From a virus, in the IMG/VR virus record IMGVR_UViG_3300028025_005178, positions 1-35,704 of that record: DNA of 35,704 nt; one strand, written 5' to 3'. The translations under genes and the position numbers were made by a program. The stretch's first letter is position 1, and the number at the start of each line of letters is the position of its first letter. Shown here piece after piece: positions 816-29,723 of this stretch. The notes under the pieces were generated by a model. That model made no database searches. It was not told where the DNA came from and was given only the letters and a program-made list of their open reading frames with translations.

Positions 816-3530
816 TCACTTACCTGAGCGTGATGGTGATACTTGTACGGGGATTGGAATCATTGTTAGGGTCAACGCTGTTCCAGCAATCAGAACACGC
901 CTGGTACTCACTGGAATACTGGAGCCGAGCGGAATATATGTATCAACATTTCCTGCAGCAAAAATATTGATTTCCTCTTCAAATGCTTCCTTAACTTCTG
1001 TTGGGGCATCCTGTACGGCCTCAACTAGCGCAGCAGCCTCAGCATCCGAGATATCGTCAATCGGAACAGTGGCAAAAATTTCGGAAGCCTGGTCGCCCGT
1101 AATTGACTCCAACACCTCACCACTTGTAGCAATACTTACTGACTGCTCTTCAGAAAGGCCGTTCTCAATAATGGCGTCAACTGCAGCAACGACCTGCTCA
1201 TCGCTAACACTCTCGCCACCCAAGACATCAACCAACTCATCAAACGCTGCATCAGAAATCGGCTCATCCAAAATGGCATCAATAACAGAATCAAATGCTT
1301 CGTCGCTTAATGACTCTTCAAAGATAGTGTCAAGAACTTCGGCAAATGCCTCATCACTGATGTCGGCGGTAAATACCTGGTCCACGACAGCGGCAATTTC
1401 TTCATCTGACAAATCTTCGGCGAATACAGTACTTACGAGTTCGGCAAGCGCCTCGTCAGACAAGTCTTGACTAAAAACCTCATCAATGACTGCAATAAAT
1501 TTCTCTGTGTCAAGGTCTGATGTTAGGAGTTCAGTAGCAACACTGACTAGTTCCTCTTCCGACTCTGTTGCAGCCAATGCTTCACCAACAGCGTCCCCCA
1601 GTTCTTCTGGGGATGGGTCATCTGCCAGAATGTCATCAACGACTTGTTCTGATGTTTCTTCTTCTACCGGTAATTCCGGTGTTGTATCTGGCGTTTCTTC
1701 TTCTGGGGCTGATTCAGGTACGGTTGTTTCGGGTGACGTTGTGTCTTCGGAATTTCCGGTTCCTCCATCAGTGCCTCCATCAGTAGTATCTGGGGTTGTA
1801 TCTATTGTATCTTCTGGCTCTGTATCGGGAGGAAAAGTAACTGGAAGTTCAGTTGTTGTTGGTTCTTCCGTTTCTAGCACTTCCGTTGTTGTGGTAGTTG
1901 GAGACTCGGTTGTTGTGGTAGGAACTTCCGTCGTGGTCGTAGTCGAAACTTCAGTTGTCGTTGTTGTAGGGACTTCGGTTGTGGTTGTTGTGGGTGCTTC
2001 TGTTGTGGTAGTGGTTGGAGGGGGTGGGACGATATTGCTTGATTGAATGAATGGTGTGCCCTCGCTTGAAGGGGTTGCAATTAGATTCAGATTTGTAGAA
2101 CCGTCCCACTGGGAATAGGTGACCCATGTTCCATTTTCATCCCAAATATTATTTGAAATTGTTGATGCTGATTGATTCCTTTGGCCGTTGTTCCAGCCGT
2201 CATATAAGTTGATGGCAATCGTATTCCCCGTAAAGGTATTCCCATTAATTATTCGGTTATCTGTCCCCATATTCCAACCAAAAGGAATCCATGCTGAATG
2301 ATAAATGGCAGTTCCGTTATTGGTAAATACAGAATTAATAATTTGTGTTCTATTTAATCCAGTAACATTAGCGCCAGTTCCTGAGTTATTGGTAAATGTA
2401 GAGTCAATAACTTTTGTGAATCTATAGTTATAGATGCCATGGGTATTATTTTCAAAAGTGCCACGAGTTACATAAGTGCGGTTCTGGAAGATAGAATCAT
2501 CTGTAGTCGACCACGAGGTAAGCCCAGCATCCAATTGAGGCGTGGAGCCATAATCGCCAGCAATTCCTATTGATAGAGAATCCCACGTAGAATCCGTATA
2601 GTAGGCAATGGCACCGCCGTTATTGTTAAAGACTGCACTACCACCAGTCATACTCGTGAAACGAACATTATTGGCCGTGACAGTCCCACGATTATTGTAG
2701 ATAAGACCACCATTGGCATTTTGTCCACGCTTCAACGTCAAGTCGCTGACTGTTAAAGAAATATTATTATTCACATTAAAGATGCGGAATTGACTATCAC
2801 CATCAATGACTGTCGAAGTTTTTCCGCTTCCGACAATAGTTACATTTTGTGTGATGTTTGGAAGTGCGCTAGCAAGCGTGATAGTCCCTGCGGGAATTTG
2901 AATTGAGTCATAGATTCCACCAGATGTACCATTTGCTTGGGTTATTGCCCAACGTAGCGTTCCAACAGAGCCATCATCTAGAAAACTCGTAACCACTAGT
3001 GATGTCGGTTGCGTAACTACTGTTAGCGATGCGTTCCTAATTGCTGGCCCATAACATCCAGCCCAAAATAGTGAATCTTTACCAGCAAATGTGATTGTGA
3101 CAACTTCATCGTTTTGTGTTGTGGTTACCCCTAAATTGGACACCTGATTTGTACCTGCGGTTAGCACCCCTGTTGTTGCAGACTCATTTGAGTCGGAAAC
3201 CGTCGCACTATATGTCCCGCCCCATGGACCATTCGCAAGAAATGAAAGTTCTAGTGCTGATGGAGACGGAATAGTGACTTGCTGAGATACAGAATTCTGA
3301 ATATAACTAAAAGTGAGTTGCGATTGACCATCCCAAACTCCAAGACTAGGAACTCCATTGGAGCAAGAACTGCCCCCACTCGCTCCACTCCAGCCACCAC
3401 CGTTGGCTGAAAAATCACCATTTACCAATAGGTTTTCAGATGTAGCAAGAACTCCGGCAGGTGCGAACCAGCCGAATAATGCGACAACCCAAAATATCCA
3501 TTGCCCTTTGCGGGCGCCCCTTTTTCTCAT
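816..3530 (-). CDS. Secreted host-like surface protein: beta-helix, Thr/Pro/Glu linker, acidic repeats, C-terminal hydrophobic anchor
   Basis: 904 residues. A positively charged start and hydrophobic core (about 1-29, ending AGVLATS) form a signal peptide, rare among phage structural proteins. Residues about 33-172 resemble a jelly-roll binding module (opens NLLVNGDFS). Residues about 178-500 start with a CSLREAI-like motif (GSVGTLRWAITQANG) and continue as Asn-rich parallel beta-helix rungs. Residues 501-610 are a mucin-like linker of TTTTTE units. Residues about 627-850 hold acidic helical repeats built on SDEAFAEVLDTIF-type units. The end (about 851-904) has a YIPLGSSIPVSTRR motif and a hydrophobic stretch, IAGTALTLTMIPI. 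This architecture resembles cell-surface proteins of planktonic actinobacteria rather than a virion part. It lies directly before the lysis genes. A -10-like TATAAT occurs upstream; the ribosome site is weak (GGTG). Likely role: displayed on the infected cell, for example surface change or superinfection exclusion (inference). A virion adhesin is the alternative. Confidence 0.75.
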   Translation of the reverse strand: MRKRGARKGQWIFWVVALFGWFAPAGVLATSENLLVNGDFSANGGGWSGASGGSSCSNGVPSLGVWDGQSQLTFSYIQNSVSQQVTIPSPSALELSFLANGPWGGTYSATVSDSNESATTGVLTAGTNQVSNLGVTTTQNDEVVTITFAGKDSLFWAGCYGPAIRNASLTVVTQPTSLVVTSFLDDGSVGTLRWAITQANGTSGGIYDSIQIPAGTITLASALPNITQNVTIVGSGKTSTVIDGDSQFRIFNVNNNISLTVSDLTLKRGQNANGGLIYNNRGTVTANNVRFTSMTGGSAVFNNNGGAIAYYTDSTWDSLSIGIAGDYGSTPQLDAGLTSWSTTDDSIFQNRTYVTRGTFENNTHGIYNYRFTKVIDSTFTNNSGTGANVTGLNRTQIINSVFTNNGTAIYHSAWIPFGWNMGTDNRIINGNTFTGNTIAINLYDGWNNGQRNQSASTISNNIWDENGTWVTYSQWDGSTNLNLIATPSSEGTPFIQSSNIVPPPPTTTTTEAPTTTTTEVPTTTTTEVSTTTTTEVPTTTTESPTTTTTEVLETEEPTTTELPVTFPPDTEPEDTIDTTPDTTDGGTDGGTGNSEDTTSPETTVPESAPEEETPDTTPELPVEEETSEQVVDDILADDPSPEELGDAVGEALAATESEEELVSVATELLTSDLDTEKFIAVIDEVFSQDLSDEALAELVSTVFAEDLSDEEIAAVVDQVFTADISDEAFAEVLDTIFEESLSDEAFDSVIDAILDEPISDAAFDELVDVLGGESVSDEQVVAAVDAIIENGLSEEQSVSIATSGEVLESITGDQASEIFATVPIDDISDAEAAALVEAVQDAPTEVKEAFEEEINIFAAGNVDTYIPLGSSIPVSTRRVLIAGTALTLTMIPIPVQVSPSRSGK

Positions 3531-7684: not shown

Positions 7685-8304
7685 GTGCCTTTGATTCCAT
7701 TCTTTTTCTGATACTCATGTCTAGCACGGGCAACTTCATGCAAGTGGGACGGACCCTTGGTAAAATACCAATGTTCTGGTTCGGCAAAATGAAAGAAAAT
7801 CATTTGCACTTCATTGTTTGCTGGGTCAGGGAAACTTTCGCGCCAATGGTATTGGTCCTCACCGTAATAACAAACTGCCTGATTTGGTTCTGGCAACATT
7901 TTTTGTTCTTCAACATGGATGGGCCACTGTGTTTTATATGAAACACACAAATCCATCGTATATGTACAGGCATTATCATCAACATGGTATGGGAGTTGAG
8001 CCCTAAAACCACGATAGGTAACCCATAGACAGTAAGTAGGTTTTAATGTTGGAGTGAATGTAGACCGGGCTTTATCTAATAAAATTTGATGATATTCCGG
8101 AAGTGGCGATTCAATTTTATCCATACTATTTATGCCAAATCTACCCAAAGATGGCTCATAGGAAATAACTTTGGTTTCTTGCAGTAAAGATAAATCTTCA
8201 TTCAATTTACTAAATACAGATGGCTCAAAAACTTCATCAACAATGAATGCTGGAGGTCTTTTATATAAAGTCCGATTCGTTATCGGGTCATAATAGGTGT
8301 TCAT
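7681..8304 (-). CDS. Divergent 2OG-Fe(II) oxygenase-like protein
   Basis: I place the start at the ATG at 8302-8304 (207 residues, MNTYYDPITN). A TTG start at 8328 would lengthen the overlap with the previous gene to 41 bases, and GGGAAG sits upstream of this ATG. Residues 107-109 (HVD) match the HxD iron motif of 2-oxoglutarate oxygenases. H153 in YHWRESF is a likely third ligand and R155 a possible 2OG contact. The spacing and surrounding strands (TYTMDLCVSY, AVCYYG, VQMIFFHF) suit a double-stranded beta-helix. The usual Lys/Arg ten residues after the distal His is not clear, so this member is divergent. It directly follows a prolyl-4-hydroxylase-like gene and precedes the membrane protein. 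Confidence 0.6.
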   Translation of the reverse strand: MNTYYDPITNRTLYKRPPAFIVDEVFEPSVFSKLNEDLSLLQETKVISYEPSLGRFGINSMDKIESPLPEYHQILLDKARSTFTPTLKPTYCLWVTYRGFRAQLPYHVDDNACTYTMDLCVSYKTQWPIHVEEQKMLPEPNQAVCYYGEDQYHWRESFPDPANNEVQMIFFHFAEPEHWYFTKGPSHLHEVARARHEYQKKNGIKGT

Positions 8305-8974
8305 TACCCAAAGACTTCCCGTCATCAATCATGTCAAGAGGTTGATTTTCGCTATTTTCTAATATAAATGTACTAACAATCCATTTATCATTTGAAATTG
8401 GCACACACCCTTGATGCGGATGTGTCCAATACGCAGGAAATAACGCTATTGACCCTGCTTTAGCGGGTACATAAATGTCTTGTTCGCGAAAATATGTTTC
8501 CCCACCAACTTCGACGTCATTGAGATAAACGACAGCGCCGAGAACACGATTCAAGATAACAACAGGAACCGGCCCGCCGTCAATATGCTCTCTGTAAAAG
8601 CCTTCACCACGGATGTATCTTTGCATGCGAAATCCCGTATCACAAATGCCCACCCAGTCCCAGAGCCACCTGAATTGTTCACGATAATATCCAACAGAAG
8701 TAAAGATAGCCTTTGAAAGTTCCATTTCATATGTAGACAATGGCTCTGGTGGAATGTTGTTATTTATTAGATTCTCTTTTGACCAACTGAAATCCATTGT
8801 ACTTTTAACATTAGCCATCACACCACTGATGACTGGGCCCGGTATAAACAGTCTCTCATAATATTTTGAAGATTCATCAATAATTGAAGAACATAATTCT
8901 TTGCTTAAAATATTTTCAGCAACCATAATGGCTGAAGATTTCCCTGCAGGCCAAGAAAATTGGATGGTCATCAT
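8288..8974 (-). CDS. Prolyl-4-hydroxylase-like 2OG-Fe(II) oxygenase (copy A)
   Basis: 228 residues. The C-terminal half carries the full P4Hc signature: FRMQRYIRGEGF, then HID (H130, D132), VVYLNDVEVGGETYF, PAKAGSIALFP, a distal His in THPHQG (H185 or H187) and K197 (DKWIVSTF) for 2-oxoglutarate. These enzymes hydroxylate proline or other residues using O2, Fe(II) and 2-oxoglutarate. A paralogous oxygenase is encoded at 12594-13184. Both follow closely behind a tiny protein of one family (79 and 82 residues), so the tiny protein plus oxygenase unit seems duplicated. The substrate is not visible; the collagen-like fibre of the same phage is an attractive candidate (inference). Confidence 0.85.
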   Translation of the reverse strand: MMTIQFSWPAGKSSAIMVAENILSKELCSSIIDESSKYYERLFIPGPVISGVMANVKSTMDFSWSKENLINNNIPPEPLSTYEMELSKAIFTSVGYYREQFRWLWDWVGICDTGFRMQRYIRGEGFYREHIDGGPVPVVILNRVLGAVVYLNDVEVGGETYFREQDIYVPAKAGSIALFPAYWTHPHQGCVPISNDKWIVSTFILENSENQPLDMIDDGKSLGNEHLL

Positions 8975-9235: not shown

Positions 9236-10051
9236 TCAGTCATCTCGTCTCATTATTTTATCAATAAATGTTTTCTTTTGCGTGGCCAACTCGGAATCAA
9301 CATCTCTTTGCATTTTTTTGTATTTACTTTTTTGTCTTTTAGGCATAAAGCCACCGCCGAATCCTCTATGTTTCAGAAGATTATAGGCATTTGTATCGCC
9401 CCATAATAGTTCGGATTCTTTAGTTCTCTTGAATGGAATTACGTGCCACATAGGGCGTCCTATTTCAAGTTCAAAAGGCTCATTAGTTAATACATTAATC
9501 ACCATATGCGCATTATGATAATAATCCGTATTAACTACCGCAGGTAGCATCGTATAATTTGGGTTAGGGTCCCAAAGCGGAGGGAGAAATAAAGAGGACC
9601 AACCTGGAGGGGTTTTTATTAACCAAGGGTTAATGACTTTAATGTAGTTCGATTCTTGGAGTTTTCGTGCTCTCGTAACAGGACATTCGCCTGTTTGTGA
9701 ATACATGAAACTTTCAATACCAAAGTCTCCTAAATCAGTAACTAAATCAAATCTAGCATCCCAGTTTTTCCCATTTAAAGATGGACGAATCATCAACTTT
9801 GCCCACAGGGGGATAGTGAAACCTGTTGCAAGATAATCTGAAGTACCAGAACATCTCTTAAGGCTCCCATCGGAACCACTCAATTCTTTCCACCACTCAG
9901 GCCAATTCCCAGCATTGGTATATGGACGACATGAATCATCCATTAAATTAGGGTCAACGCAAGAAAGAAATACTTGATTTTTCTTTAATTTTGGTAAATC
10001 ATAAAAAATGTCTGGTTTAACTATTTGCAGTTTTTCTGAGCGCTTCCGCAT
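9236..10051 (-). CDS. DUF6065-like protein of unknown function
   Basis: I prefer the ATG at 10049-10051 (271 residues, MRKRSEKLQIVKPDIF). A GTG at 10117 would overlap the halogenase gene by 101 bases and has no ribosome site. The middle and C-terminal parts contain KTPPGWSSLFLPPLWDPNP, then AVVNTDYYHNAHMVINVLTN and EIGRPMWHVIPFKR. This order (PPG.S.LF.PP, VV(N/D)TD.Y, G.P..(Q/H)(V/I)IPFKR) matches an uncharacterised beta-rich family that I recall as DUF6065, found in bacteria and large phages. The last 40 residues are Lys/Arg rich (KRQKSKYKKMQR). It overlaps the halogenase gene and probably works with it. Its reaction is unknown. Confidence 0.6.
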   Translation of the reverse strand: MRKRSEKLQIVKPDIFYDLPKLKKNQVFLSCVDPNLMDDSCRPYTNAGNWPEWWKELSGSDGSLKRCSGTSDYLATGFTIPLWAKLMIRPSLNGKNWDARFDLVTDLGDFGIESFMYSQTGECPVTRARKLQESNYIKVINPWLIKTPPGWSSLFLPPLWDPNPNYTMLPAVVNTDYYHNAHMVINVLTNEPFELEIGRPMWHVIPFKRTKESELLWGDTNAYNLLKHRGFGGGFMPKRQKSKYKKMQRDVDSELATQKKTFIDKIMRRDD

Positions 10052-11492
10052 GGTCCACCAATTTCTGGTTAATGAGTTCCGATGATATTTGTGAAATATT
10101 CTTTCTAGAAGATTCACGGGAATTGTATGCTTCTAATTGTATTGATGCAACTTCTTTATTAAGCACTCCCTGACCTTGGGCTACGTGCCATAAATGTGCT
10201 GGACCGAATAGTTCAAATCCCGTTGAAGGTATGTCATGATGTTCTGGACATCTGGTATTCCATAGTTCAAGCAGATGCTGCAGTAATGGTGGTTTTTCTG
10301 CTTTTTGCTGTTCCGCCCACATCGGAGTGTCATTTCTGTCTGAAATATAGTGAAGTGAAATCATGCAAAGAATATTTTCCATAATAGAATCCATGACACG
10401 ATGATATTCTTTAATCCCATATGTTCTTTCACGCGATAATGTTGGAAGATATGAGCAAATAAGGCGAGCCTGCTGAATTGTAGTAGAAATTGATGTTGCT
10501 TCAAGCGGTTCAACAAACCCTGCAGCCAATCCAACTGCAACACAATTATTTTTCCATGTGGTTTTAAAATATCCTGACTTAAAATCAAGCGTTTTTGCTG
10601 GCTCTACTTCAAATCCATGAATTTCCGAAGCCTCTTTAATTGCTTCATCTACCGAGCAAAAGTCTGAAGAAAAAACATAACCGTTACCGCGGCGTTTTTG
10701 GGTTGGAATTTCCCACATCCAACCATTTTTTAATGCTCTCGCACGTGTGTATGGGCGTATCTGGCCTGATGGGTCAGATGGTGTTGGGAAAGCGATTGCG
10801 CTATCGCACGGAAGATATTTGCGATATGAAACAAAATCATTTTCAGAAATTTTGCTCAATATTTCACGACTAAATCCTGTTGCGTCAATAAAAAAGTCGC
10901 CGTCAATAACATCTTCAGAAGAATTAATTTTTATGTGCTGAATAAAGCCATATTCATCGACGCTAACATCATTTACGTCTGCGTCAATAAAATGAATTTT
11001 TCTTTCTTTTCCAATTTTAGTTAAATATCCGTTTAATTTGAAAGTATCAAAATGATATTGGTTTGTTCCAAAGTGCGTTTTATCTCCAGAATCAATGATT
11101 TTATTATCCACCAAACCACGCCAAGAAAAAGTACTTGTTAACGGCCAGCCATTTTCTAATGCATGTGCGTAGCCGCCCCAAAATGTTCCCGCACTTAAGC
11201 CCGTTCCACCAACACTATGGAAATAGTCTGGTGTGTGATTCGTCCAGTTTTCGTATCTAATCCCATATTTGTGCGTAATGTCAGCATGTTTAATCATTTC
11301 GTGAACATCTATACCAATAGCATCTTGGAAATGGCGCCAATGTTCTGTTGAACCTTCACCTACACCTACGATGCCTTTTTTACTAGAAGAAACAACAGTG
11401 ACTTCATAATTTTTGAAGTAATTTTTGATAATAAGTGCTGTGACGAGCCCTGCAGTACCAGAACCAATGACTACTATTTTTTTTCGGTTCAT
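10017..11492 (-). CDS. Flavin-dependent tryptophan-halogenase-family protein
   Basis: 491 residues, close to the usual 500-540. Residues 6-20 (IVVIGSGTAGLVTAL) are the FAD-binding GxGxxG motif. The halogenase signature WxWxIP is present as WMWEIP at 258-263. K75 in THKYGIRYENW sits where the catalytic lysine (K79 of PrnA) is expected, and E331 in FVEPLEATSI matches the active-site glutamate region. FIDATGFSR (201-209) is another FAD-binding segment. These enzymes use FADH2, O2 and halide to chlorinate or brominate tryptophan, free or in peptides and natural products. No partner flavin reductase is seen here, so the host would supply FADH2. It overlaps the upstream Rossmann-like gene by 4 bases. 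Such genes have been reported in some T4-like cyanophages, but the phage substrate is not known to me. Confidence 0.85.
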   Translation of the reverse strand: MNRKKIVVIGSGTAGLVTALIIKNYFKNYEVTVVSSSKKGIVGVGEGSTEHWRHFQDAIGIDVHEMIKHADITHKYGIRYENWTNHTPDYFHSVGGTGLSAGTFWGGYAHALENGWPLTSTFSWRGLVDNKIIDSGDKTHFGTNQYHFDTFKLNGYLTKIGKERKIHFIDADVNDVSVDEYGFIQHIKINSSEDVIDGDFFIDATGFSREILSKISENDFVSYRKYLPCDSAIAFPTPSDPSGQIRPYTRARALKNGWMWEIPTQKRRGNGYVFSSDFCSVDEAIKEASEIHGFEVEPAKTLDFKSGYFKTTWKNNCVAVGLAAGFVEPLEATSISTTIQQARLICSYLPTLSRERTYGIKEYHRVMDSIMENILCMISLHYISDRNDTPMWAEQQKAEKPPLLQHLLELWNTRCPEHHDIPSTGFELFGPAHLWHVAQGQGVLNKEVASIQLEAYNSRESSRKNISQISSELINQKLVDHAEALRKTANS

Positions 11493-16986: not shown

Positions 16987-19900
16987 TCAATTTGTGTAGC
17001 CGTAAAGTTTCCAAGAACCTGAAATTGTTGTGGCGCTTGCTCCAAGACGGAAGTTGGAGAATGCAATTCCGTTATAGGAACTTAGTCCGCTATGTATTAA
17101 TGTCCCAGTGTAATTGCCGAACGTTGAGGCATTATGCGAACTAATAGTTGTGGTATCGGCAAGAAATGGTCTGCATATTTCTAGAGCAACATGACCGTCG
17201 GAAAATGCAATTGTGCCGACGACTCCGAGTGTCGAATTCGCACCAACATAGTTGTCTGTGGAACCGCCATAAGTCAAACCATTCATTGCATAGTAGTAAC
17301 CAGCCCCTGCAGGAGTACTACCAGATAGTAAATCAACAAAGAATAAGTAAAGATTGGCACTTGCTCCTTGAAGGTTGGAAATAACAAGTCTGTAGTTATC
17401 GTAAGTTGAACTAAATACCGATGTTATGTTTGCTGTTGTAACACCAGAGAACGTTCCACTATTCAAAAAGACAAGACCAACGTCGGCAGTTGTTGCGACA
17501 GTCCCTGCTTTGTTCGGTAGCGTCAATGTTCTATCTGCTGTAAGTGTTGTTGGCGTTAAAGTTACTTCATAAGTACTGGTTCCACCTGCACGACCAGCAA
17601 GCGCAACACCATCCTGGGTTGCCGCAGTACGCACTGTGGCAGTACCGATAACATCTAAAGTTGTTGCTGGGTTGATGGTCCCAATGCCTACACGATTATT
17701 ACTGGTATCAGTTTTGAAAGTACTTGTACCACTAGCAATGGAGCCAATAACGGTTAGTGTGCTTAGGTTTCCAACACTAGTAATTGCTGTTTGAGCAGCA
17801 CCAGTAACGGTTGCGGCAGTGCCTGACACGTTGCCTGTTACATTTCCCGTTAATGGACCAGAGAATCCCGCTGCCGTTAGTGTTGTTCCATTGAATGTTA
17901 AGTTGGCACTACCTGCTGCAGCATTGGTCCCATCTTTGTAAACAACTTGGTTGGCGCTTCCAGCAACAGGTCCGGTAGCACCTTGGGCTCCAGTTGCCCC
18001 TTGCGGACCTTGGGCTCCAGTTGAGCCTTGTGGACCTACATCTCCTTGCGGACCCTGCGCACCTGTAGAACCCTGCGGACCAGTTGCACCCTGAGCACCC
18101 TGGACTCCTTGCGCTCCAATGTCTCCTGTCCGGGCAAAGGTAACAATGATGCTTTCGTTGTTACTAAATGATGATGCCGAACCTGAAACATACGAACAAG
18201 AAACATCAAAGAAGCCTGTTTCTTCCGTAACAGCAGAAATGGTGAACACTGCAAAGTCTAAAGAATCGCCCTTATTGGAGATTCGGAAGTGGCCCTTGAT
18301 AGTGCTTGTTGAGTCGTCAATTGTTCTTAGGTACGACTGAATATCTGTTGAGTTTGCGTCAACGTCATCAATCTTAAGTTCTGTAGCAAGTGTTATGTCA
18401 GAGTTGCTGAACTTGAGTTTTCCAGCACCTGGGTCCGTATGTGCCGTATCGGTATTAAAGACGTACTCAAAAGTGACACCGCCAAAGTTTCCTTGCGCAC
18501 CTTGCGGTCCTGTGAAACCTTGTGTGCCTTGAGGTCCTTGTGCACCCGTGAATCCTTGAGTTCCTTGAGGTCCTGTAAAACCTTGAGTACCTTGTGGACC
18601 CGTGTCTCCTTGTGCTCCTTGAGCCCCCTGAGCACCTTGAGCACCAGTAAATCCCTGTGCTCCTTGTGCACCTTGTGAGCCTTGGGGGCCGGTATCTCCT
18701 TGCGCTCCAGTGAAACCCTGCGTCCCTTGTGGACCAGTAAAGCCTTGAGTACCTTGTGGACCAGTAAAGCCTTGAGTACCTTGTGGACCTGTGTCTCCCT
18801 GTGAGCCTTGAGAACCTTGGGCACCTTGAGCACCCTGGGAACCAGCAGTTCCTTGAGCACCCTGTGCTCCTTGTACTCCCTGCGGACCAGTAAAACCTTG
18901 CGCACCCTGCGAACCCTGCGGTCCAGTCTCCCCTTGTGCGCCCTGCGCCCCCTGTGAGCCTTGTGGGCCTGTATAACCCTGGGAACCTTGGGGACCGGCG
19001 AAACCCTGAGTTCCTTGGGGTCCTTGCGCACCCTGAGGTCCTGTATAACCCTGGGAACCTTGGGCACCCTGCGAACCCTGGGGACCAGTATCACCCTGCG
19101 AACCCTGTGGACCCGTGTCACCTTGCGAGCCTTCAGCACCCTGCGGGCCAGTATTGCCTTGGGTGCCTTGCGGACCGGTGGGACCCTGAATGCCCTGCGG
19201 TCCAGTAGGTCCTTGTGCACCAACATCACCTGTACGAGCAAAAGTAATAATGACATCAGCGTTGTCGCTAAAAGTCGTGACGGAACCAGATACATAACTA
19301 CAATTAACGTCAAAGTATCCTGTTTGTTCAGTTATTGAAGAGATAGTGAATAAAACAAAGTTTGCTGAATTAGTTTTTTCGGAAACTCTAAAGTGTCCTT
19401 TTATGGAACTTGTTGAATCATCGATTGTGCGTAAATATGACTGAATGTCTGTTGCATTGTCATCTTGGTCGTCGATGTAAAGAATTGTTGCTGAGGCAAA
19501 AATGCCATCATTGAATTTTAGTGTCCCTACTCCGGGGTCGGTTTGACTGGCATCTGTATCGAATGTATAGTCGAATGTGACACCACCAAAGTTTCCTTGG
19601 GCACCTTGCGCTCCAGTGAAACCCTGAGGACCCGTTGCGCCTTGTGCACCTTGTGAACCCTGGGGTCCTGTATCGCCCTGAGCGCCAGTGAAACCTTGAG
19701 TGCCTTGGGGGCCTGTAAAACCTTGTGTGCCTTGGGGGCCTGTAAATCCTTGTGCGCCCTGACTTCCTTGAGCACCTTGCGCTCCTTGTGGTCCAGTAGA
19801 ACCCTGCGCACCTTGAGGACCCGTAACCGTACTAGCCGCACCAACAGCGCCCTGTGGCCCAGTAGAACCCTGTGCACCTTGAGGACCCGTCAAGCCTGTA

Positions 19901-21090
19901 GCACCTGTCGGACCAGTTGCACCCGTAGCGCCAACGCCTGTAGTCATTAAAGCAGCAGAGAACCATGTTCCTTGACCAGCGCCACCCCATTGAAGGCTTC
20001 TTGATGCAGAGTCGCCGTTATATGCAGTGAAGTCTACATAGTCCGTAGTTCCATTAAGGTAGATAACCCTGCTTCCACCCTGTGAAGAACCTGAACCTGT
20101 TACTGTTTGATTTTGGAAGATAGCAGATGTGCTGCTATTTTTACGAATCTGAACATTGTATTGATTTGTTGTGACACCAGCAGCAGTCCACCATACTTGC
20201 AAGGCAATGTTGTAGTAACCAGCAATTGTTGGCGTGAACTGTTTAGAGGTTGCATTCCACCAGTTATTAGGGTCAATGTCATCTACAAAAGAAATAAGAA
20301 CATCATTGGTGTTGCTTGCAATTGACTGGTCGCCAGACAACTTTCCAACAACGACTGTATCTGTTGCAGAGATGTTTGCACTTGGTCCGATTGCTCCTTG
20401 GCTACCCGTCGCACCTTGAGGACCAACATCACCTTGCGGACCCTGAGGACCCGTAGAACCTTGTGCACCAGTAGTACCCTGTGCACCCGTAGCGCCTTGT
20501 GCCCCATTTGACCCCTGAGGACCAACATTACCTTGCGGACCTTGAGCGCCCACATCACCTTGCGGACCCTGAGGACCCGTAGAACCTTGTGCGCCCGTGG
20601 CTCCTTGTGAGCCAGTTGCACCTTGGCTTCCAGTTGCGCCTTGCGGTCCGACATCACCTTGAGGACCCTGTGGGCCAGTTGCACCCTGAGGACCAGTTGA
20701 ACCCTGAGCACCAGTTGGGCCTGTTGCTCCAGTCAGACCAGTTGCACCAGTTGCTCCCTGAGGTCCCTGAGTACCAACGACACTTGATGGGACGAACTTT
20801 GCCCCATCAAATTTCAAAACTTGGTCGGAGGTAGCCCCAGAAGTATCTACCTCAATGCCATCAATAAATAAAATCGGAACCTTTAGGGTGTCGTCAGTTT
20901 TGAGGACATTCGCTGCATCACGATATAGGTTTACGTCACCCGCAGCAGAACCGTCACCCCAAACGAGCCGTCCACCGCCCTGAACCTGCAATCTTGCATA
21001 AGTTTCGCCATCAAGAAAAATTGTTAAACCATCAGAGCCAGCAGAAGACAACTGCTTAATCGTGATTGGTGTTATAAATTTTTGAGCCAT
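16987..21090 (-). CDS. Collagen-like long tail fibre with C1q-like and duplicated inserted domains
   Basis: 1367 residues. The N-terminus ([11 protein letters not shown], about 1-105) is a virion-attachment region like that of the next fibre. Four collagen blocks of G-X-Y triplets, mainly [12 protein letters not shown] and GDT, occupy 106-236, 387-499, 622-868 and 991-1042. Between them lie a C1q/TNF-like jelly roll (237-386, [17 protein letters not shown]) and two copies of one beta domain (500-621 and 869-990, both with [16 protein letters not shown] and FARTGD(V/I)GAQG). After 1043 come NNRVGIGT and [12 protein letters not shown] fibre motifs, then a tip domain (1206-1367) ending [11 protein letters not shown]. 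Collagen blocks should form triple-helical stalks, and the tip probably binds the receptor. The ribosome site is GAGG. Pro occurs in the X position and Thr often in Y, so hydroxylation or glycosylation is conceivable. Confidence 0.85.
17965..20775 (-). repeat. Collagen-triplet DNA repeats with a duplicated internal domain
   Basis: Within the long fibre gene, collagen-coding repeats lie at about 20383-20775, 19594-19932, 18487-19227 and 17965-18120. They are built from 9-base-periodic units such as complements of GGACCTCAAGG and CAAGGTTTTACTGG. Two homologous non-collagen segments, about 19228-19593 and 18121-18486, encode the duplicated beta domain. Such DNA is prone to length change by recombination, and assembly of short reads across it may be unreliable. 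Confidence 0.75.
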
Positions 21091-21135: not shown

Positions 21136-22809
21136 TTAGCCTGTTACTACGATTGTGTAGTCGTTGAGAGCAATCGTTCCCAAAAGTGTAACAGTAACAA
21201 CGTCTGCGCTAGTGCGGACAATGTCGCCAATAACTGTTGCGCCACTAGACACTTCGTAAATCTGAACAATGACATCTGTTGTGCCAAAAAGATGGCTAAC
21301 TGTTGTCGTTGAGGTGCCGGTGATGCTGGCGGCGCAACCTTGCTTAGCAATGCGAGCAAGAGCGGGGGTAGAAGTCGTTGCTGTGCCAGCAGAAGTTGCA
21401 GTACCAAGATTAGTACGAGCACTCGCGGCAGATGAGGCACCAGTACCACCATCGGCGACAGCAATGTCTGTGCCATTCCAAGTACCAGTGGTAATTGTTC
21501 CAAGGGTCACGATGTCGTTGTCGCCGGTGTATGTTCCACCAGCAACGGCTGCCAAAGTTGAGTTATACGCCTGTACGTTAGTCCCAATGACTAGACCAAG
21601 AGTTGAGCGTTGTGCTTCTGCATCAGCGTCATCAACTAGAGCGCGACCCGCTGCTGTGAAGTCAGCGAGTGCGGCAGTTCCAGAACCAGTAAAGTAGGGG
21701 ACTTTGTTAGCAGCAGAAGTCAAACCTGCGATTGCAGCAAGGTCAGCGTCATAAGCCTGAACATCTGTACCAATTGCTAAACCAAGGTTGGTGCGGGCAT
21801 CTCCAGCAGTTGAAGCCCCAGTACCACCATCTGCGATTGCAACGTCCGTGCCGTTCCAGACACCTGTCGTAATTGTTCCGAGTGTGGTAATGGTATTTTG
21901 ACCAACGTAGGTTGATGCAATATCAATAGCGTCTGAAGATACGGTGATGCGACCCGCTGTTCCAACAGCATTAATCGTATTCCCATCCTTGGTGAGACCG
22001 TCACCAGCCATAATTGTTCCAGCACCAGAGAATTGAGCGAAAGCGATTGCGTCTGTACCTACGGTAATGGCTCCGTTGCTTGTTACGACCCAGCCGGAGT
22101 CGGCGTTGGCGGTACCTTCTTCAACAAACGTGAACGCTCCACCAGATACTTCACCTGTACCATCAAAGTCTGTTGCGCGGACAGCAGCGCCAGTAGACTG
22201 GACTACGTAAATACCGTTTTCAGAAGCGGTGCTTTGGTTCTTTACGAGGACGCGGTCGCCAGTAGCAAGCGTTACCCCGTCAATTGCATCGCCATTTTCT
22301 AGACCAGAAGCGAGAAGAACGGCAACAGTAGTTGCTGCACGGACCGACTGCTTAACATCCAGGCCTGAACGAGCGGCATCAACGTAGCCCTTAGTAGCGG
22401 CATGGGCATCATCCGTAGGGGTGGCAACCTTTAAATTGCCGTTTGCATCACGTTTTGCCAACTTGGAAGCAGTGGCCGAATCGGTGGCGTCGGTAATAGT
22501 ATTCCACATTGCGGCAGGTAGCAAACCAGCACTATCGGTATCGGCGACATTGAGGGTAAGAGTGACGGTGCCGTTGGACTCAGAAACTGTGAGGGCCTCG
22601 GCAATTCCTGCGCCGCCACCAGAAGTAATGCTATGTACTGTCTTTCGCCATGCAGCATTGGCATAGACCATAAGGCTGTATGTTGCAGTATTGAAGTACA
22701 TCCGGCCTTCAAAGTTGCCGCTACTTGGGTTGGTGGCCAATGCCTCAAATTTTGCGTTAATCAGTTGATTCTGATTGAGGTCAATATTTGTTAGAAACTT
22801 CTGAGCCAT
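21136..22809 (-). CDS. Repeat-type tail fibre
   Basis: 557 residues. The N-terminus MAQKFLTNIDLNQNQLINAK is the attachment-type start common in phage fibres and resembles the start of the collagen-like fibre. Residues 110-270 include DAHAATKGYVDAARSGLDVK and RVLVKNQSTASENGIYVV, widespread tail-fibre modules. From about 300 on, repeats of the type TLGTITTGVWNGTDVAIADG and GGTGAS.A.(D/S)ARTNLG recur, the classic trimeric fibre repeat. The end (about 475-557) is a beta domain (HLFGTTDVIVQIYEVSSG) that could be the tip. AAGGAAA gives the ribosome site. It should form a trimeric fibre attached to the baseplate and may pair with the collagen-like fibre. Confidence 0.85.
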   Translation of the reverse strand: MAQKFLTNIDLNQNQLINAKFEALATNPSSGNFEGRMYFNTATYSLMVYANAAWRKTVHSITSGGGAGIAEALTVSESNGTVTLTLNVADTDSAGLLPAAMWNTITDATDSATASKLAKRDANGNLKVATPTDDAHAATKGYVDAARSGLDVKQSVRAATTVAVLLASGLENGDAIDGVTLATGDRVLVKNQSTASENGIYVVQSTGAAVRATDFDGTGEVSGGAFTFVEEGTANADSGWVVTSNGAITVGTDAIAFAQFSGAGTIMAGDGLTKDGNTINAVGTAGRITVSSDAIDIASTYVGQNTITTLGTITTGVWNGTDVAIADGGTGASTAGDARTNLGLAIGTDVQAYDADLAAIAGLTSAANKVPYFTGSGTAALADFTAAGRALVDDADAEAQRSTLGLVIGTNVQAYNSTLAAVAGGTYTGDNDIVTLGTITTGTWNGTDIAVADGGTGASSAASARTNLGTATSAGTATTSTPALARIAKQGCAASITGTSTTTVSHLFGTTDVIVQIYEVSSGATVIGDIVRTSADVVTVTLLGTIALNDYTIVVTG

Positions 22810-24046: not shown

Positions 24047-27000
24047 TTAGCCAAGTGAAGCAAAATCAAGAACTCCTTCGGCAATGTTATCTAAAATTAA
24101 GTTTATACTAGATATTGCTGCATGTTCGTAAATGTATCCCATTGGGCGAACTAATTCGGCGAGCGCCAAAACGGTTGGGCTGCCGAATGCCCGCACGGGA
24201 CGGACGTAGGAAGAGGTGGACTTATTAGCACTGGTCTGAGTGCCAGTACTCAAATTCTGGGGCCATGCGGTGCTCGCGTTGGTCTCAGTAGAACTCCAAT
24301 ATGCCGCGGAAGAAAAACCTGTATTTAAAGCAACTCTGTTGACGTACATTTCATTTAGTTCATCTTTTGATGGTAGAAACCAGTCAGATTGACCCCCAGA
24401 AACTAAGTTACTGCAATACACGGCTGCTGATGTTGCTGCTACGTTTCCTAATTGAGCAACAATATTTGCAGTATTTTGTGCGCCCGTACCAATTGCCGTA
24501 CCGTCAGCCCCAGTTACCGCTGCTGACTGGTTTGCCCCAGTAGCCCAAGTTATTTGAACTTGGTCGCCAACAGGAGCAACTTCGAAATATTGTCCTGTAG
24601 AGTTTCCAGCCGTAGAAGGAGTGATAAATACTTTGCCGCCACCAGGACCGATATCCCCAATTGCGTAATCTGTAGGTGTTTCTGATACTAGTGTATAAAT
24701 TTTTATTTTCCAAATATTACTATCAGCGTTTGGTGTGATAGCAACTTTTTTATCACCAGTTAAACAAAGTTTGATAACGTCTTTTAATGCTTGAGTACTA
24801 CCGGCCCTATATCCACTGTACTTATTTACTAACTGCCATTCAATAAAATCATCCAAATATACGGAACCGGCCAAAACCCCCGAAGGTAATGCTGTATAAA
24901 GTTTTCCACCAGTAAATTGACTCAACCATTCCCTATTTGCCAAAGAAACATTTTCAGGAGTAGTCAAAGTACTAGTAGCCCAAGTTTCAGTACCAGTTGC
25001 GTCAACAGGAAGTTCTGATAGTTCATAAGTAAAAAAATCAGAATATGATTGCATGACTTCGTCTGCTTTATAAGTCATTGAATCAAGAAGTTTATAGAAC
25101 GGGTAATCTGGGTTTTGTTGAGAATCTACATCCCAATAAAAATGAGGTAGATATTGACGTCTAGCATTTTGAACGTACGTGTTGCCAAGCCAACCATAAT
25201 AATTATATAAGAACGGCAATGTTACATAAAAAAGGTCGTCACCATGACCGCTAACTGTTATTTCTATATCAACCTGATAGGGAGATAGGGAAGAAAATGA
25301 GTTAAAAAGGTTGGACCTAGCAGCAGTATATTTTCCGGCATTACTTGTATACGATTCACTACCGCTAGGGGGTGTTCCTCCGCTTTCATATATTTTTATT
25401 GAAGTTGTAATGTTTTGTGTTTCACTGCGTGTCATGCAGTTGAATGCGAGTGGGAATGATTGTGTGCGTGTGAGTATCCATGGGTTTTCCGGTCCCCCGG
25501 AATCGGTAATAGTATAAACGCCATTGTATTTTTGTAATAAACCAGTTTCGTTTCTGACAAGAATTCTTGCGCCTTCGTCGCCGTTCGCTGTTGCTTTTCC
25601 GCCTTGTGACATTTCTGGAATGTTTGGCGATATCCCTGCAATAGTAAATGTCGTTGGCGTGACGGCAGTAATATAAGTTTTTGTAACATTGTATTCAATT
25701 GGGAATGTTTCATAAACAGATACGAGTTGCCCAACAGCAAAACGATGTCCAGGTGTTATGTATGAAACATTATTTTGACTTATGTCTGTAACTACAGATG
25801 TAGAAACAGTATCTGTTGCTGTTATCTGTGCTGCATAAGTTCCCGGAGATGTCAGTAGGAATGAACGCACAGGGCGAACATAATTTGAGGCATATTTCCA
25901 GTCGTTATATTTAATTCCAGTAGAGAAATTCTGAGCCCAAGAGGTAGTGGCGTTATATTCAGAAGAGTTCCAATATGTTCCAGTAGAAAACCCGCCGATT
26001 TCTACTACATATAAATTTTCATACATTTCATTTAGTTCATCTTTTGATGGTAAAAACCAGTCAGATTGACCACCAGAAACTAAGTTACTACAATAAACTG
26101 CAGCAGAACTAGCGGAAAGATTCCCTGATTGAGCAACAATATCAATAGTATTTTGTGCTCCTGTTCCAATTGCCGTACCGTCAGCCCCAGAAACTGATGC
26201 TGACTCGTTTGCTCCAGTAGCCCAACTTCTGTTTAATTCGACCCCAACAGGGGCGGCCTCAAAATATTGTTCTGCAACATTTCCTTCCGTGGAAGGTGTT
26301 AAGAAAATAATCCCACCACCCGGACCAGTATCCCCAATTTCATAGGGTTCAACACTGAAGGTATTAGTTGTGACAGAAACTATTTGCTTATTAACAACAT
26401 TAAATATGTTTGGCGATATTCCAGTTACGGTAACGAATGAACCAACCGCAAAACTATGACCTTCACAGGTGTAGACATAATTTTTTCCGTTACCCGAAAC
26501 TTCAGCATTAGACAAATACTCATCACCCTGCGGGACAGGAGGTTCACTAAAGGAGCGAACGGCGCGTAATCGCTGTATCGCGTTTTTTAAATATGAAACC
26601 TGAAGACCATTGCTAAAATCATGAAGCCATGCACTGTTGGACGCATTTTCTGTGGAACTCCAATATGCTGCAGAAGAAAAACCTGTATTAAGGGCTACAC
26701 GATTCTCGTATAAGTGTGTTAGTTCATGCTTTGAAGGCAAAAACCAATCTACAAAACCGCCATAAGTTAACTCATCACAATATTCGGCAGCAGATGTAGT
26801 GGCATTATTGTTGCCTTGAGTAATAATGTCACCAGTGTTACTGGCACCAGTACCAATGAGTACGCCGTCTGCTCCAACAACATTGGTAGACTGATAGTCG
26901 GTCGGGGTGGACTGGGCCCATGTTCTTGAAACTTCGGTACCAACAGGTGCAACTTCAAAATATAAGCCAGTGTTATTTCCGTGCGTCGAAGGGGTAATGA

Positions 27001-27658
27001 ATATTTTACCGCCTGCAGGACCGGTATCACCAATCTCGTATGCTGGCTGCTCGACCGCAACCTTAGGCAATGCTGAAAAATTACCAATATTTGATGGCAT
27101 TTCTAAAACAGTAAAAGTATCTGCGGTTACGCTTGCAATTTCTTTATTTGTAATATTGTATGATTCTGGAATTGCCCCAGTGACTGTGACTAAATCGCCA
27201 ACAGAAAACCCATGTCCAGTAGCGGTATACGTTGCATCGGTGCGTTCTATCCCGGTGACTTGGACTGTTCCGCCATGCCTTAAAGTGTCTGAACCTATTG
27301 TCAAAAATTCATCATTTGTGGAAGTTATGACACCATCACTATAAGAATATTGTGGCAATTGTGCTGAAGTAGCATATTTTATTCTTTCACTTGTGCTGCG
27401 ATTTGCAAGCACAGAACTTTCAGTAATATTTGCAGGTACGGACTGGTTAGTAAGTTTTATAACCACAGGGTCAGCATTGGTTGGGTTTACTTGATATGCA
27501 TAGTGGGAGTAAATGTGTTTATAATCAGAAATTACTACACCTACACCATTTTCCTCAGTCCATGAAGATGGGTATCCAGTTAATGGGATAACATTTTCAT
27601 TTTCGTCCAGAAACGACCATTCATTATTTTTACTTAAAAATGAGGTTGTGCGTGCCAT
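24047..27658 (-). CDS. gpI-like baseplate protein carrying three C-type-lectin-like display domains
   Basis: 1203 residues. Region about 690-995 plus 1160-1190 looks like a P2 gpI-type baseplate protein: NREWLSQFTGGKLYTALPSG, DFIEWQLVNKYSGYRAGSTQ and, after an interruption, ELVRPMGYIYEHA. Three DUF1566/Lcl_C-like domains lie at about 207-371, 439-600 and 998-1158. Each has an IGD.GP.GG..F.TPST start, a DWFLPSK.EL..(L/M)Y core and a YW.S(T/S)E...W......G.......(L/V)R.VR.F end. The third is inserted inside the gpI-like part. FCCH-like repeats (GH.FAVG..V.V...P..(F/Y)NV) occur at about 133-186, 386-436 and 614-673. gpI proteins sit at the baseplate edge where fibres attach; the lectin-like folds may bind host glycans or proteins directly. 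Its start overlaps the baseplate J stop by one base. Confidence 0.75.
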   Translation of the reverse strand: MARTTSFLSKNNEWSFLDENENVIPLTGYPSSWTEENGVGVVISDYKHIYSHYAYQVNPTNADPVVIKLTNQSVPANITESSVLANRSTSERIKYATSAQLPQYSYSDGVITSTNDEFLTIGSDTLRHGGTVQVTGIERTDATYTATGHGFSVGDLVTVTGAIPESYNITNKEIASVTADTFTVLEMPSNIGNFSALPKVAVEQPAYEIGDTGPAGGKIFITPSTHGNNTGLYFEVAPVGTEVSRTWAQSTPTDYQSTNVVGADGVLIGTGASNTGDIITQGNNNATTSAAEYCDELTYGGFVDWFLPSKHELTHLYENRVALNTGFSSAAYWSSTENASNSAWLHDFSNGLQVSYLKNAIQRLRAVRSFSEPPVPQGDEYLSNAEVSGNGKNYVYTCEGHSFAVGSFVTVTGISPNIFNVVNKQIVSVTTNTFSVEPYEIGDTGPGGGIIFLTPSTEGNVAEQYFEAAPVGVELNRSWATGANESASVSGADGTAIGTGAQNTIDIVAQSGNLSASSAAVYCSNLVSGGQSDWFLPSKDELNEMYENLYVVEIGGFSTGTYWNSSEYNATTSWAQNFSTGIKYNDWKYASNYVRPVRSFLLTSPGTYAAQITATDTVSTSVVTDISQNNVSYITPGHRFAVGQLVSVYETFPIEYNVTKTYITAVTPTTFTIAGISPNIPEMSQGGKATANGDEGARILVRNETGLLQKYNGVYTITDSGGPENPWILTRTQSFPLAFNCMTRSETQNITTSIKIYESGGTPPSGSESYTSNAGKYTAARSNLFNSFSSLSPYQVDIEITVSGHGDDLFYVTLPFLYNYYGWLGNTYVQNARRQYLPHFYWDVDSQQNPDYPFYKLLDSMTYKADEVMQSYSDFFTYELSELPVDATGTETWATSTLTTPENVSLANREWLSQFTGGKLYTALPSGVLAGSVYLDDFIEWQLVNKYSGYRAGSTQALKDVIKLCLTGDKKVAITPNADSNIWKIKIYTLVSETPTDYAIGDIGPGGGKVFITPSTAGNSTGQYFEVAPVGDQVQITWATGANQSAAVTGADGTAIGTGAQNTANIVAQLGNVAATSAAVYCSNLVSGGQSDWFLPSKDELNEMYVNRVALNTGFSSAAYWSSTETNASTAWPQNLSTGTQTSANKSTSSYVRPVRAFGSPTVLALAELVRPMGYIYEHAAISSINLILDNIAEGVLDFASLG
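24185..27040 (-). repeat. Three copies of a C-type-lectin-like domain at DNA level
   Basis: Copy 1 is at about 26546-27040, copy 2 at 25859-26344 and copy 3 at 24185-24667. Copies 2 and 3 are nearly identical in DNA over about 70 bases coding SNLVSGGQSDWFLPSKDELN (24353-24420 vs 26035-26102). Copies 1 and 3 share the stretch coding RVALNTGFSSAAYWSST. Copy 3 therefore looks like a mosaic of the other two, with its own GC-richer end at about 24185-24300. Confidence 0.7.
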
Positions 27659-29427
27659 TAAATTACTCTTGCTGTCAGATTAACCACTATGTCGTTGTCA
27701 ATGTCGGATATAAGTGGCAAGGTTCCCTTGTAGATGAATGGGAGGTCCCCGTTAGCGGCATTAGTATCCGAATTAGCATCAGTGCCATTAAGAGTAACGT
27801 TTCCTACAGAAATAATTCCGTCTAACCCAAGTAAATATGATGAGATATAACTCGTCCTTACATGCTGTTCGTTGCTTGGGAAATTTTCTGGACTCAACGA
27901 ATTGTATATAACGCTTTTAATGAGAGACTCAATATCAAATTCAGAAAGCCTACTGTCATAAACAACATCTATTTCAACTTCTAGTCCTGCCCGTCGGAAG
28001 GACGAGACTCCGATTGTTAGGCCAGCCACACTTTTTTCTGCAAGTTGTGCTGCAATATTATTTCTTTCAGTAGTGGTTAAGTCTTGTCCGACACCATAAA
28101 CAAATACGGTGACGAAACCTTCTGTTTCCCCATTAAACTCTAAACTAACATTATCAGTAGAATCTGTATTGTCATATACACGACATCTGCTGATATTTGG
28201 ATACGTTACTGCCACATACGCCTGCAGTTGGCTTGCGGTTACCAATACATCGGATAAAGACGCAATATGTGTTCTTACTCTGCTTAAATAAGTGAAGTCA
28301 TTCTCTGGTTCTAAGCCATTAGTGAAAGGCGTAGGATAAAGTGAGCCAGTAACATTAGTGACAGTCCCTGCTGTTGGTGTGGTTCCACCAGTAACAGTGT
28401 ATGTCACACTCGTTGAAGTAGGTATCGATGTTATGACGACGGAAGTTGGCGAACCTCCATGCAATGTCCCTGTACCTGCTGTCGCTGTCAATGTACTACC
28501 AACAGCAAAACCAGAAGTTGATTCCATATTGGTAATCGTTGCTGTCCACGGACTACCCAGGCTCCCGCCGACAGTTAGGGTTAAGTTATTCGCCGGTGTT
28601 GCGCCACCAAGGCTTGCGCCCGGAATAGTAATCGTATTTCCCAACACATATCCAGCACCGCCAGATGTTATAGTGACCGTGATAGCCCCACTATATGCCG
28701 TGCCTCCTCCGGCTTTGGCTATCGTAAATACTGCGCCACTACCAGAACCGCTGGTTGCGCTCTGTGTGACCCCAGTATAAGTTGCTGCCCCTGCGATACT
28801 AGTTCCAGAAGCAGTAAACGTTGTAGAACCCTGCAGTAAACCATTCGCACTAATTGAACCGATTGTACCAGTCGTACTAACGCCGTCTTCCCAAACTCTA
28901 ATAGTATCTAGGTTGACGTTGACATTCAATGGGACTAAAGAGTCGCCGCTAATCATTACTGGGTGTATGCCAATTGCTTGAGAATAAAGGATAGCCAATG
29001 CGGGTATAGTTGTTCCTGATTCAACGGAGTCAATGACAATATCTTCGGCTAATTCAAAAGTGTACTGATAGGTGTCGCCAGCAATTTTCTCTGAAAAAGA
29101 AAAGATGCTTCCAGCGGGGATATATACCCCGTCGTTGTCTGTTGCAATAAACTCAACGGCAACGGATGCTCTAGCACCATAGGAACGGGTTGTCCCTAAC
29201 ATTTTTGATAGGCCTTCCATGAGTCGTGATGGGAGTCTGTTGATTGCTCCCACTGACAGGGATGACATATATGCGAATGCTTGGAAGAGTGCGTCTTCTG
29301 GTGTGCCTTGTCTAAGGGTGAACTCGGGCATGCTGATGCGGGCGAGTTCTATGGCTCCAAGATATACGTCTACTGGCTGCACGTCATGGATGGTTAGGTC
29401 TACGTATTGTGAGAAATCTGCGGGCAT
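27658..29427 (-). CDS. Baseplate J-like wedge protein with an inserted beta domain
   Basis: 589 residues. The N-terminal 180 residues (LARISMPEFTLRQGTPEDAL, RLPSRLMEGLSKMLG, ATDNDGVYIPAGSIFSF, IRVWEDG) and the C-terminal 220 (ENDFTYLSRVRTHIASLSDV, VTASQLQAYVAVTYPNISRC) fit the baseplate J/gp47/T4 gp6 family that builds the wedge ring. Between them, at about 185-370, lies an insert. It has GSGSGAVFTIAKAGGGTAYS and GGAGYVLGNTITIPGASLGG, a domain I recall from cyanophage structural proteins, plus an FCCH-like part with GFAVGSTL. The insert probably projects from the baseplate. Start and stop overlap both neighbours (TAATG), as expected for the gp25 - J - I order of contractile phages. Confidence 0.85.
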   Translation of the reverse strand: MPADFSQYVDLTIHDVQPVDVYLGAIELARISMPEFTLRQGTPEDALFQAFAYMSSLSVGAINRLPSRLMEGLSKMLGTTRSYGARASVAVEFIATDNDGVYIPAGSIFSFSEKIAGDTYQYTFELAEDIVIDSVESGTTIPALAILYSQAIGIHPVMISGDSLVPLNVNVNLDTIRVWEDGVSTTGTIGSISANGLLQGSTTFTASGTSIAGAATYTGVTQSATSGSGSGAVFTIAKAGGGTAYSGAITVTITSGGAGYVLGNTITIPGASLGGATPANNLTLTVGGSLGSPWTATITNMESTSGFAVGSTLTATAGTGTLHGGSPTSVVITSIPTSTSVTYTVTGGTTPTAGTVTNVTGSLYPTPFTNGLEPENDFTYLSRVRTHIASLSDVLVTASQLQAYVAVTYPNISRCRVYDNTDSTDNVSLEFNGETEGFVTVFVYGVGQDLTTTERNNIAAQLAEKSVAGLTIGVSSFRRAGLEVEIDVVYDSRLSEFDIESLIKSVIYNSLSPENFPSNEQHVRTSYISSYLLGLDGIISVGNVTLNGTDANSDTNAANGDLPFIYKGTLPLISDIDNDIVVNLTARVI

Positions 29428-29723
29428 TATTGACGCCTTCTAAAGGAGAAAGATATGGTGTTGTTACCATCTCCGTCGATGTTGTTGATGACTTTTGTAA
29501 TTTGTACTTCGGGAACAAATCTGCTGGCATTTATTAAGAATTGTCCTTTGTCGGCAGATTGGAATGTTGGGTCGAATACGCCAAAATCAGGCGTCATTCG
29601 CAGTATGCCTGGTTCTGTGAGAGCAGAAATACTTAATAATTGCTTATAGTAAGAATCGCTACCATCAGTAAGTTTAGCAAAACCTGTTTCATTATATTCT
29701 ATTGGAAATCTTAATGAATCCAT
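29427..29723 (-). CDS. gp25-like baseplate wedge protein
   Basis: 98 residues. GILRMTPDFGVFDPTFQSAD (about 39-58) and INASRFVPEVQITKVINNID followed by FSFRRRQ match the short gp25/W family (usually 100-150 residues): L...PGER.M.P.FG......, ....I...EPRI.V. This one has TEPGILRMTPDFG in that place. gp25 binds the sheath end to the baseplate J ring and nucleates sheath assembly. A strong AGGAGG site precedes the ATG. It directly precedes baseplate J, the usual order. Confidence 0.75.
   Translation of the reverse strand: MDSLRFPIEYNETGFAKLTDGSDSYYKQLLSISALTEPGILRMTPDFGVFDPTFQSADKGQFLINASRFVPEVQITKVINNIDGDGNNTISFSFRRRQ

Follow-up and report, generated by a model that had tools for sequence, protein, structure and literature searches.

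The window analysed here is a stretch of 35,704 nucleotides of viral DNA (IMG/VR record IMGVR_UViG_3300028025_005178, positions 1 to 35,704), which carries on its minus strand an uninterrupted reading frame (24047-27658) for a protein of 1,203 residues. The data indicate that this protein is a gpI-type baseplate wedge protein (BW3, in the position of T4 gp7) of a contractile-tailed phage and that it bears three inserted Lcl_C domains. The gene lies directly after those for a gp25-like baseplate protein (29427-29723; phrog_5026) and a gpJ/gp6-like baseplate wedge protein (27658-29427; phrog_219, baseplate wedge, and tblastn matches to baseplate J); all three are encoded on one strand, and the ATG of the wedge gene overlaps the gpJ stop codon (TAATG). 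This slot, next after gp25 and gpJ, is where gpI (BW3 or T4 gp7) is normally found, and a gpI homologue also follows gpJ in other contigs (L001 to L003, L018, L092, and L113). In tblastn searches, the nearest cultured matches of the window gpJ were the "baseplate J" proteins of Gordonia, Brevibacterium, and Arthrobacter phages.

The protein, whose features are all encoded on the minus strand, consists of a host sequence split by two insertions. A carbohydrate-binding module (CBM)-like beta-sandwich, predicted from the fold of the relative L018 and from a hidden Markov model (HMM) of uninterrupted relatives, is encoded in two parts (27419-27658, residues 1-80, HMM positions 1-82; and 25187-25444, residues 739-824). 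Between them lies insertion A (25445-27418, residues 81-738), a cassette of about 658 residues that contains, in order, what may be the first half of a split "NGIY" tail-fibre module (27266-27379, tentative), FCCH-like repeat 1 (27041-27265; phrog_584, best stretch residues 131-186), Lcl_C domain 1 (26549-27040), FCCH-like repeat 2 (26345-26524; assigned by its resemblance to repeat 1, phrog_584 having two stretches), Lcl_C domain 2 (25859-26344), FCCH-like repeat 3 (25589-25819; assigned by similarity and kept in L001 to L003), and the second half of the NGIY module (25445-25588; phrog_30390). The first part of the gpI core follows (24668-25186, residues 825-997), with helices and the last core strand, IWKIKIYTL; it is interrupted by insertion B, which is Lcl_C domain 3 (24185-24667, residues 998-1158; best Pfam stretch 1036-1156), and resumes with a final helix and strand (24050-24184, residues 1159-1203, HMM positions 358-404). 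The earlier note on this DNA had proposed that FCCH-like repeats alternate with the lectin domains; this is plausible for lectins 1 and 2, which have repeats before, between, and after them, with modest support from phrog_584 (E value 1e-7, two stretches). That the cassette splits an NGIY module is only suggestive: the second half alone scored 23.3 bits against phrog_30390, the joined halves scored 27.1 bits with a match that extends over the join, the first half matched weakly alone, and the comparison of the joined halves with a tail fibre was out of register.

Pfam searches of the window for gpI and Baseplate_J gave no match, and because the direct search was empty, intermediate relatives were used to establish the link to gpI. 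An HMM of 25 Tail_P2_I-type gpI rows matched residues 851-997 (iE 3e-12, Z=1000); a shuffled window protein gave no match to this HMM. The Gordonia phage genes that follow gpJ (DalanDe gp52 and Gray gp57) gave a profile alignment with the window protein (hhalign E value 6.6e-9). The relatives L019 and L020 match Tail_P2_I (PF09684) above the cut-off, and 23 of the 41 rows of the family alignment match it at E values of up to 1. Uninterrupted relatives also occur in viral contigs: L018 is 42% identical to the window protein across the core, L022 to L025 are 63 to 65% identical to L018, and 46 further gpI loci were found. No match was obtained when the whole window protein and L018 were compared with cultured phages by tblastn, and a scan of genome contigs for relatives found none. 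The gpI identity put forward in the earlier note is thus borne out by the Tail_P2_I-matching relatives, the gp25-gpJ-gpI order, and the uninterrupted homologues.

The insertion points were located with an HMM built from four uninterrupted proteins of the L018 type (L018, L022, L023, and L025), since MAFFT misaligned uninterrupted gpI proteins over the 160-residue insert; an alignment that mixed lectins with core fragments was discarded, its rows being misplaced. The HMM aligns with three collinear pieces of the window protein: residues 1-80 correspond to HMM positions 1-82, residues 739-995 to positions 87-352, and residues 1157-1203 to positions 358-404. The first and last pieces are weak alone (10.7 and 0.8 bits), but they occur in the order expected, as they also do in the relatives with lectins. 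In pairwise shuffle tests against L018, L022, and L025, the N-terminal piece gave z values of 4.6 to 11 and the C-terminal piece a z value of about 8, with none of 500 shuffles scoring as high. Because the pieces are collinear and are backed by these tests, we conclude that there are exactly two large insertions, one at site A (residues 81-738, lectins 1 and 2) and one at site B (about residues 996-1158, lectin 3). In L018, L022, L023, and L025, HMM positions 82 and 87 lie almost side by side and insertion A is missing; at site B, the uninterrupted VQTYVSETPDSAKVLAALISQKPAGIVMVY of L019 corresponds to IYTLVSETPTDYA, the lectin, and SPTVLALAELVRPMGYIYEHA in the window protein. In the predicted structure of L018 (predicted local distance difference test [pLDDT] score 76.9, predicted template modelling [pTM] score 0.54), site A maps to the turn that links strands 67-76 and 83-93 in the N-terminal domain. 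Site B maps to the gpI core, in the loop that runs from strand 341-347 to helix 362-369; lectin 3 is inserted between the last strand and the last helix of the core. The insertion of this lectin into the gpI-like fold, as proposed earlier, is confirmed by the HMM pieces on both sides of it, that is, by the alignment with uninterrupted gpI proteins that had been suggested as a check, and the junction given (IWKIKIYTL before the lectin and ELVRPMGYIYEHA after it) was right to within about 20 residues. The account in which only one lectin is an insert held for lectin 3 and had to be widened: all three are inserts, at two sites, with lectins 1 and 2 in the N-terminal insertion.

The N-terminal host domain also differs from the earlier anatomy, in that it too is CBM-like. 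Residues 24-167 of the L018 model superimpose on CBM4-2 with a Z score of 11.1 and a root mean square deviation of 3.1 over 130 aligned residues, and the domain has a CBM4/CBM16/CBM22-like jelly-roll beta-sandwich fold. By homology with L018, the N-terminal domain of the window protein is predicted to be a carbohydrate-binding-module-like beta-sandwich. Among the matches listed in a PDB fold search with the L018 model, all were CBM-like and the gpI part was unrepresented, a result that is neutral with respect to gpI identity.

The three lectin-type domains (residues 207-370, 439-600, and 998-1158) were identified by Pfam-A as Lcl_C (PF07603, formerly DUF1566; 112.3 bits versus a curated cut-off of 34.9, E value 2e-32), and residues 1090-1158 match PDB entry 8q4e, the Legionella Lcl-CTD (E value 5.1e-7), which is C-type-lectin-like, trimeric, and glycosaminoglycan binding (PMC11162425). 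Both results uphold the assignment of three C-type-lectin-like domains to one protein, and we regard this as the probable fold of each. The C-terminal halves of the lectins vary more than the rest (38 to 60% identity between most nonorthologous copies, versus 70 to 78% for the gpI core). Within the window, the lectin-coding regions are 60 to 70% identical in DNA overall, with patches of 94 to 98% identity (24345-24394 with 26022-26077 and 24291-24325 with 26655-26689). These short patches suggest exchange between lectin copies, of the kind that gene conversion would produce; at the protein level, the first and third lectins of L003 share 96% identity.

Three other metagenome contigs, L001, L002, and L003, have the same architecture, with cores 70 to 78% identical to that of the window protein, except that L003 has only two lectins and lacks lectin 2. 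Lectin 3 has an identical boundary in all four; since four independent contigs share the site, its insertion is not an assembly chimera. Lcl_C is common among the phage structural proteins of metagenomes, and among gpI homologues it is found at other places as well. In L092 (3068-4885) and L101, a gpI homologue after gpJ carries Lcl_C at a third place, between the WLGQF-like and GTRAAL-like helices, and in L113 (3128-5545), also after gpJ, it occupies a fourth place, in the N-terminal domain; site B is free in each. In L083 to L085, Lcl_C lies within a 1,700-residue protein encoded after gp25 and gpJ (L083, 2312-7414), which may be gp7-like. L092, L113, and L083 each have a single Lcl_C domain in the protein concerned. 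A different sugar-binding fold, CBM_4_9, scores above the cut-off in L066 (2408-3628), where it occupies site B of a Tail_P2_I protein; L070 (2438-3526) has a similar unclassified insert at this site, and L067 (646-1872) and L069 (1-1050) look alike, all four being gpI proteins with a large insert at the lectin 3 loop. In L027, an FCCH-like insert lies at another place in the gpI core. Because Lcl_C is found at different loops and CBM_4_9 at site B, glycan-binding folds have entered loops of this wedge protein several times, and these loops are recurrent acceptor sites for sugar-binding domains. Otherwise ordinary gpI reading frames in L058, L065, L068, and L071 have inserts of about 30 to 40 residues at the lectin 3 loop.

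The neighbouring gpJ also takes up modules. The L003 gpJ (1688-3424) has a "GTVGSITGSGPW...TAGTVTN" repeat near its C terminus as a clean insert between LPLVS and IDNDI, the window gpJ being without this repeat, and the L018 gpJ bears an NGIY-type module. Elsewhere in the window, the minus strand encodes a tryptophan-halogenase-like protein in the tail region (10017-11492; phrog_2928, E value 1e-101), a protein matching 2OG-Fe(II) oxygenase (8288-8974; phrog_61), and a collagen-like tail fibre of 1,367 residues with 11 collagen stretches (16987-21090).

Based on the domain content, the gene order, both insertion boundaries, and the recurrence in other phages, we consider it likely that domain insertion has turned a gpI/gp7-type wedge protein into a receptor-binding protein. 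We infer that the protein assembles into the wedge, is exposed at the surface, binds a glycan or another receptor, and contributes to triggering. The conserved helical gpI core would form the usual heterotrimer with two copies of gpJ, giving one gpI per wedge and six per baseplate. The loops that hold or contact tail spikes in other phages would bear glycan-binding domains instead, with Lcl_C domain 3 at the last core loop and domains 1 and 2 carried by a flexible FCCH-like stalk, which interrupts the CBM-like N-terminal domain. With as many as 18 lectin-type domains anchored on the wedge ring of each virion, one can envision a host-facing, multivalent grip of low affinity: weak glycan contacts could together hold the particle and transmit strain straight to the wedge and sheath, the binding domains being part of the wedge chain itself. 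In most contractile phages, BW3 is the attachment point for receptor-binding proteins (PMC10811340). The spikes of XM1 are held by gp17, through a loop and through the C-terminal region of this protein, and push or pull on the spikes has been proposed to reach the sheath via the wedge (PMC10457771).

Several observations weigh against this conversion. Pfam Tail_P2_I (PF09684) matches neither the window protein nor L018; the AlphaFold model of the full-length window protein (20 rows) was poor (pLDDT 35, pTM 0.27) and was left uninterpreted; and the known glycan site of Lcl-CTD needs trimerization, with gpI expected as a single copy per wedge. Lectin binding, exposure, and triggering are, moreover, steps that we infer. 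Downstream lie separate fibre genes (21136-22809 and 16987-21090, the latter collagen-like); the lectins may therefore be an accessory to fibres or act beside them, and the phage may grip its host by the baseplate itself plus separate tail fibres. The same fibre genes favour another explanation, in which the inserted Lcl_C, FCCH, and NGIY modules bind no host and are docking platforms for the downstream-encoded fibres or locks between neighbouring wedges. These peripheral parts are where BW3 binds fibres or spikes in known phages, and Lcl_C is able to trimerize. However, the C-terminal halves of the lectins diverge faster than the gpI core, the presence and position of the modules differ among relatives (L003, L092, L113, and L018), and in L066 another sugar-binding fold takes the lectin 3 site; we regard docking as unlikely, although it is the strongest of the alternatives.

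The modules could also be neutral passengers. On this view, recombination has spread beta-rich domains among phage structural genes, and surface loops tolerate them although they have no function. The occurrence of Lcl_C in many unrelated phage structural proteins and the high-identity patches between lectin copies, which suggest recombination, fit this idea, but lectin 3 has been kept in frame at the same site in four contigs with 70 to 78% core identity, and repeated glycan-binding folds at the loops of a receptor-facing protein would be unexpected for random passengers, making this explanation improbable. DUF1566 is a frequent target domain of diversity-generating retroelements (PMC4159848), and the variable part of the window lectins lies in the C-terminal half, as in such targets, which raises the question of whether the lectins are diversified for host-range switching. 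This explanation was rejected as very improbable: no reverse transcriptase (PF00078) was detected in the window or in the 106-kb L002 contig, both of which may be incomplete, and the window, with the same limit, holds no template-repeat-like copy of the 3' part of a lectin elsewhere.

A more speculative reading, less likely than not, is that there is a lineage of contractile phages in which the wedge protein itself is the main adhesin. The gpI loops would be standing acceptor sites for swapped lectins and sugar-binding domains, changes in host range would come from a remodelled baseplate core instead of from exchanged fibre tips, and the coupling of receptor binding to the sheath trigger would be mechanical, without a fibre between them. 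The insertions reveal which loops of the minimal gpI fold tolerate a whole domain, and phages use these loops repeatedly for glycan-binding domains (Lcl_C at at least three places and CBM_4_9 at one). They provide a natural map of positions for a receptor-binding domain on a contractile injection machine and make testable the question of whether a wedge-borne lectin can replace fibres in adsorption and triggering. Within the literature covered, two features are new: the placement of lectin-type domains inside the gpI core and inside its N-terminal domain, and their repeated insertion at different loops. The literature search, whose coverage left subscription journals largely outside, returned no paper that pairs DUF1566 with a baseplate.

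BW3/gp7 (gpI) has been described as an evolutionary hotspot (PMC8894135), and the window protein resembles the P2 gpI/Tail_P2_I family (BW3; T4 gp7, pyocin PA0619, and XM1 gp17) in core sequence, in its position after gp25 and gpJ, and in the predicted last strand-helix-strand of the core. Known gpI proteins have about 180 to 250 residues and carry fibres or spikes noncovalently, whereas in the window protein two insertions add about 820 residues and three lectin-type domains. At 1,032 residues, T4 gp7 is much enlarged as well, but no comparable lectin insertion was found in the literature searched; likewise, the gp7-like part of Alg12 in AlgoCIS contacts fibres or builds superstructures without a lectin insertion (PMC8894135). 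The Lcl_C domains share their family and, by homology, their C-type-lectin-like fold with Legionella Lcl-CTD (PDB 8Q4E), which is a free trimeric C-terminal head, whereas the window domains are embedded in another domain, and the protein that holds them is expected to be present once per wedge. C-type-lectin-like folds are used for binding by phages in BPP-1 Mtd and the DUF1566 retroelement targets, but there they lie at fibre tips, whereas here they are on a wedge protein, with no reverse transcriptase or template repeat detected. Also comparable is Gp119 of Vp4 (Herelleviridae), a baseplate wedge protein with CBMs for which cell binding has been demonstrated (PMC11406892); the Vp4 "BW3," however, matches gp105 of A511 and has CBMs as its extra folds, whereas the lectins of the window protein interrupt the gpI core itself.

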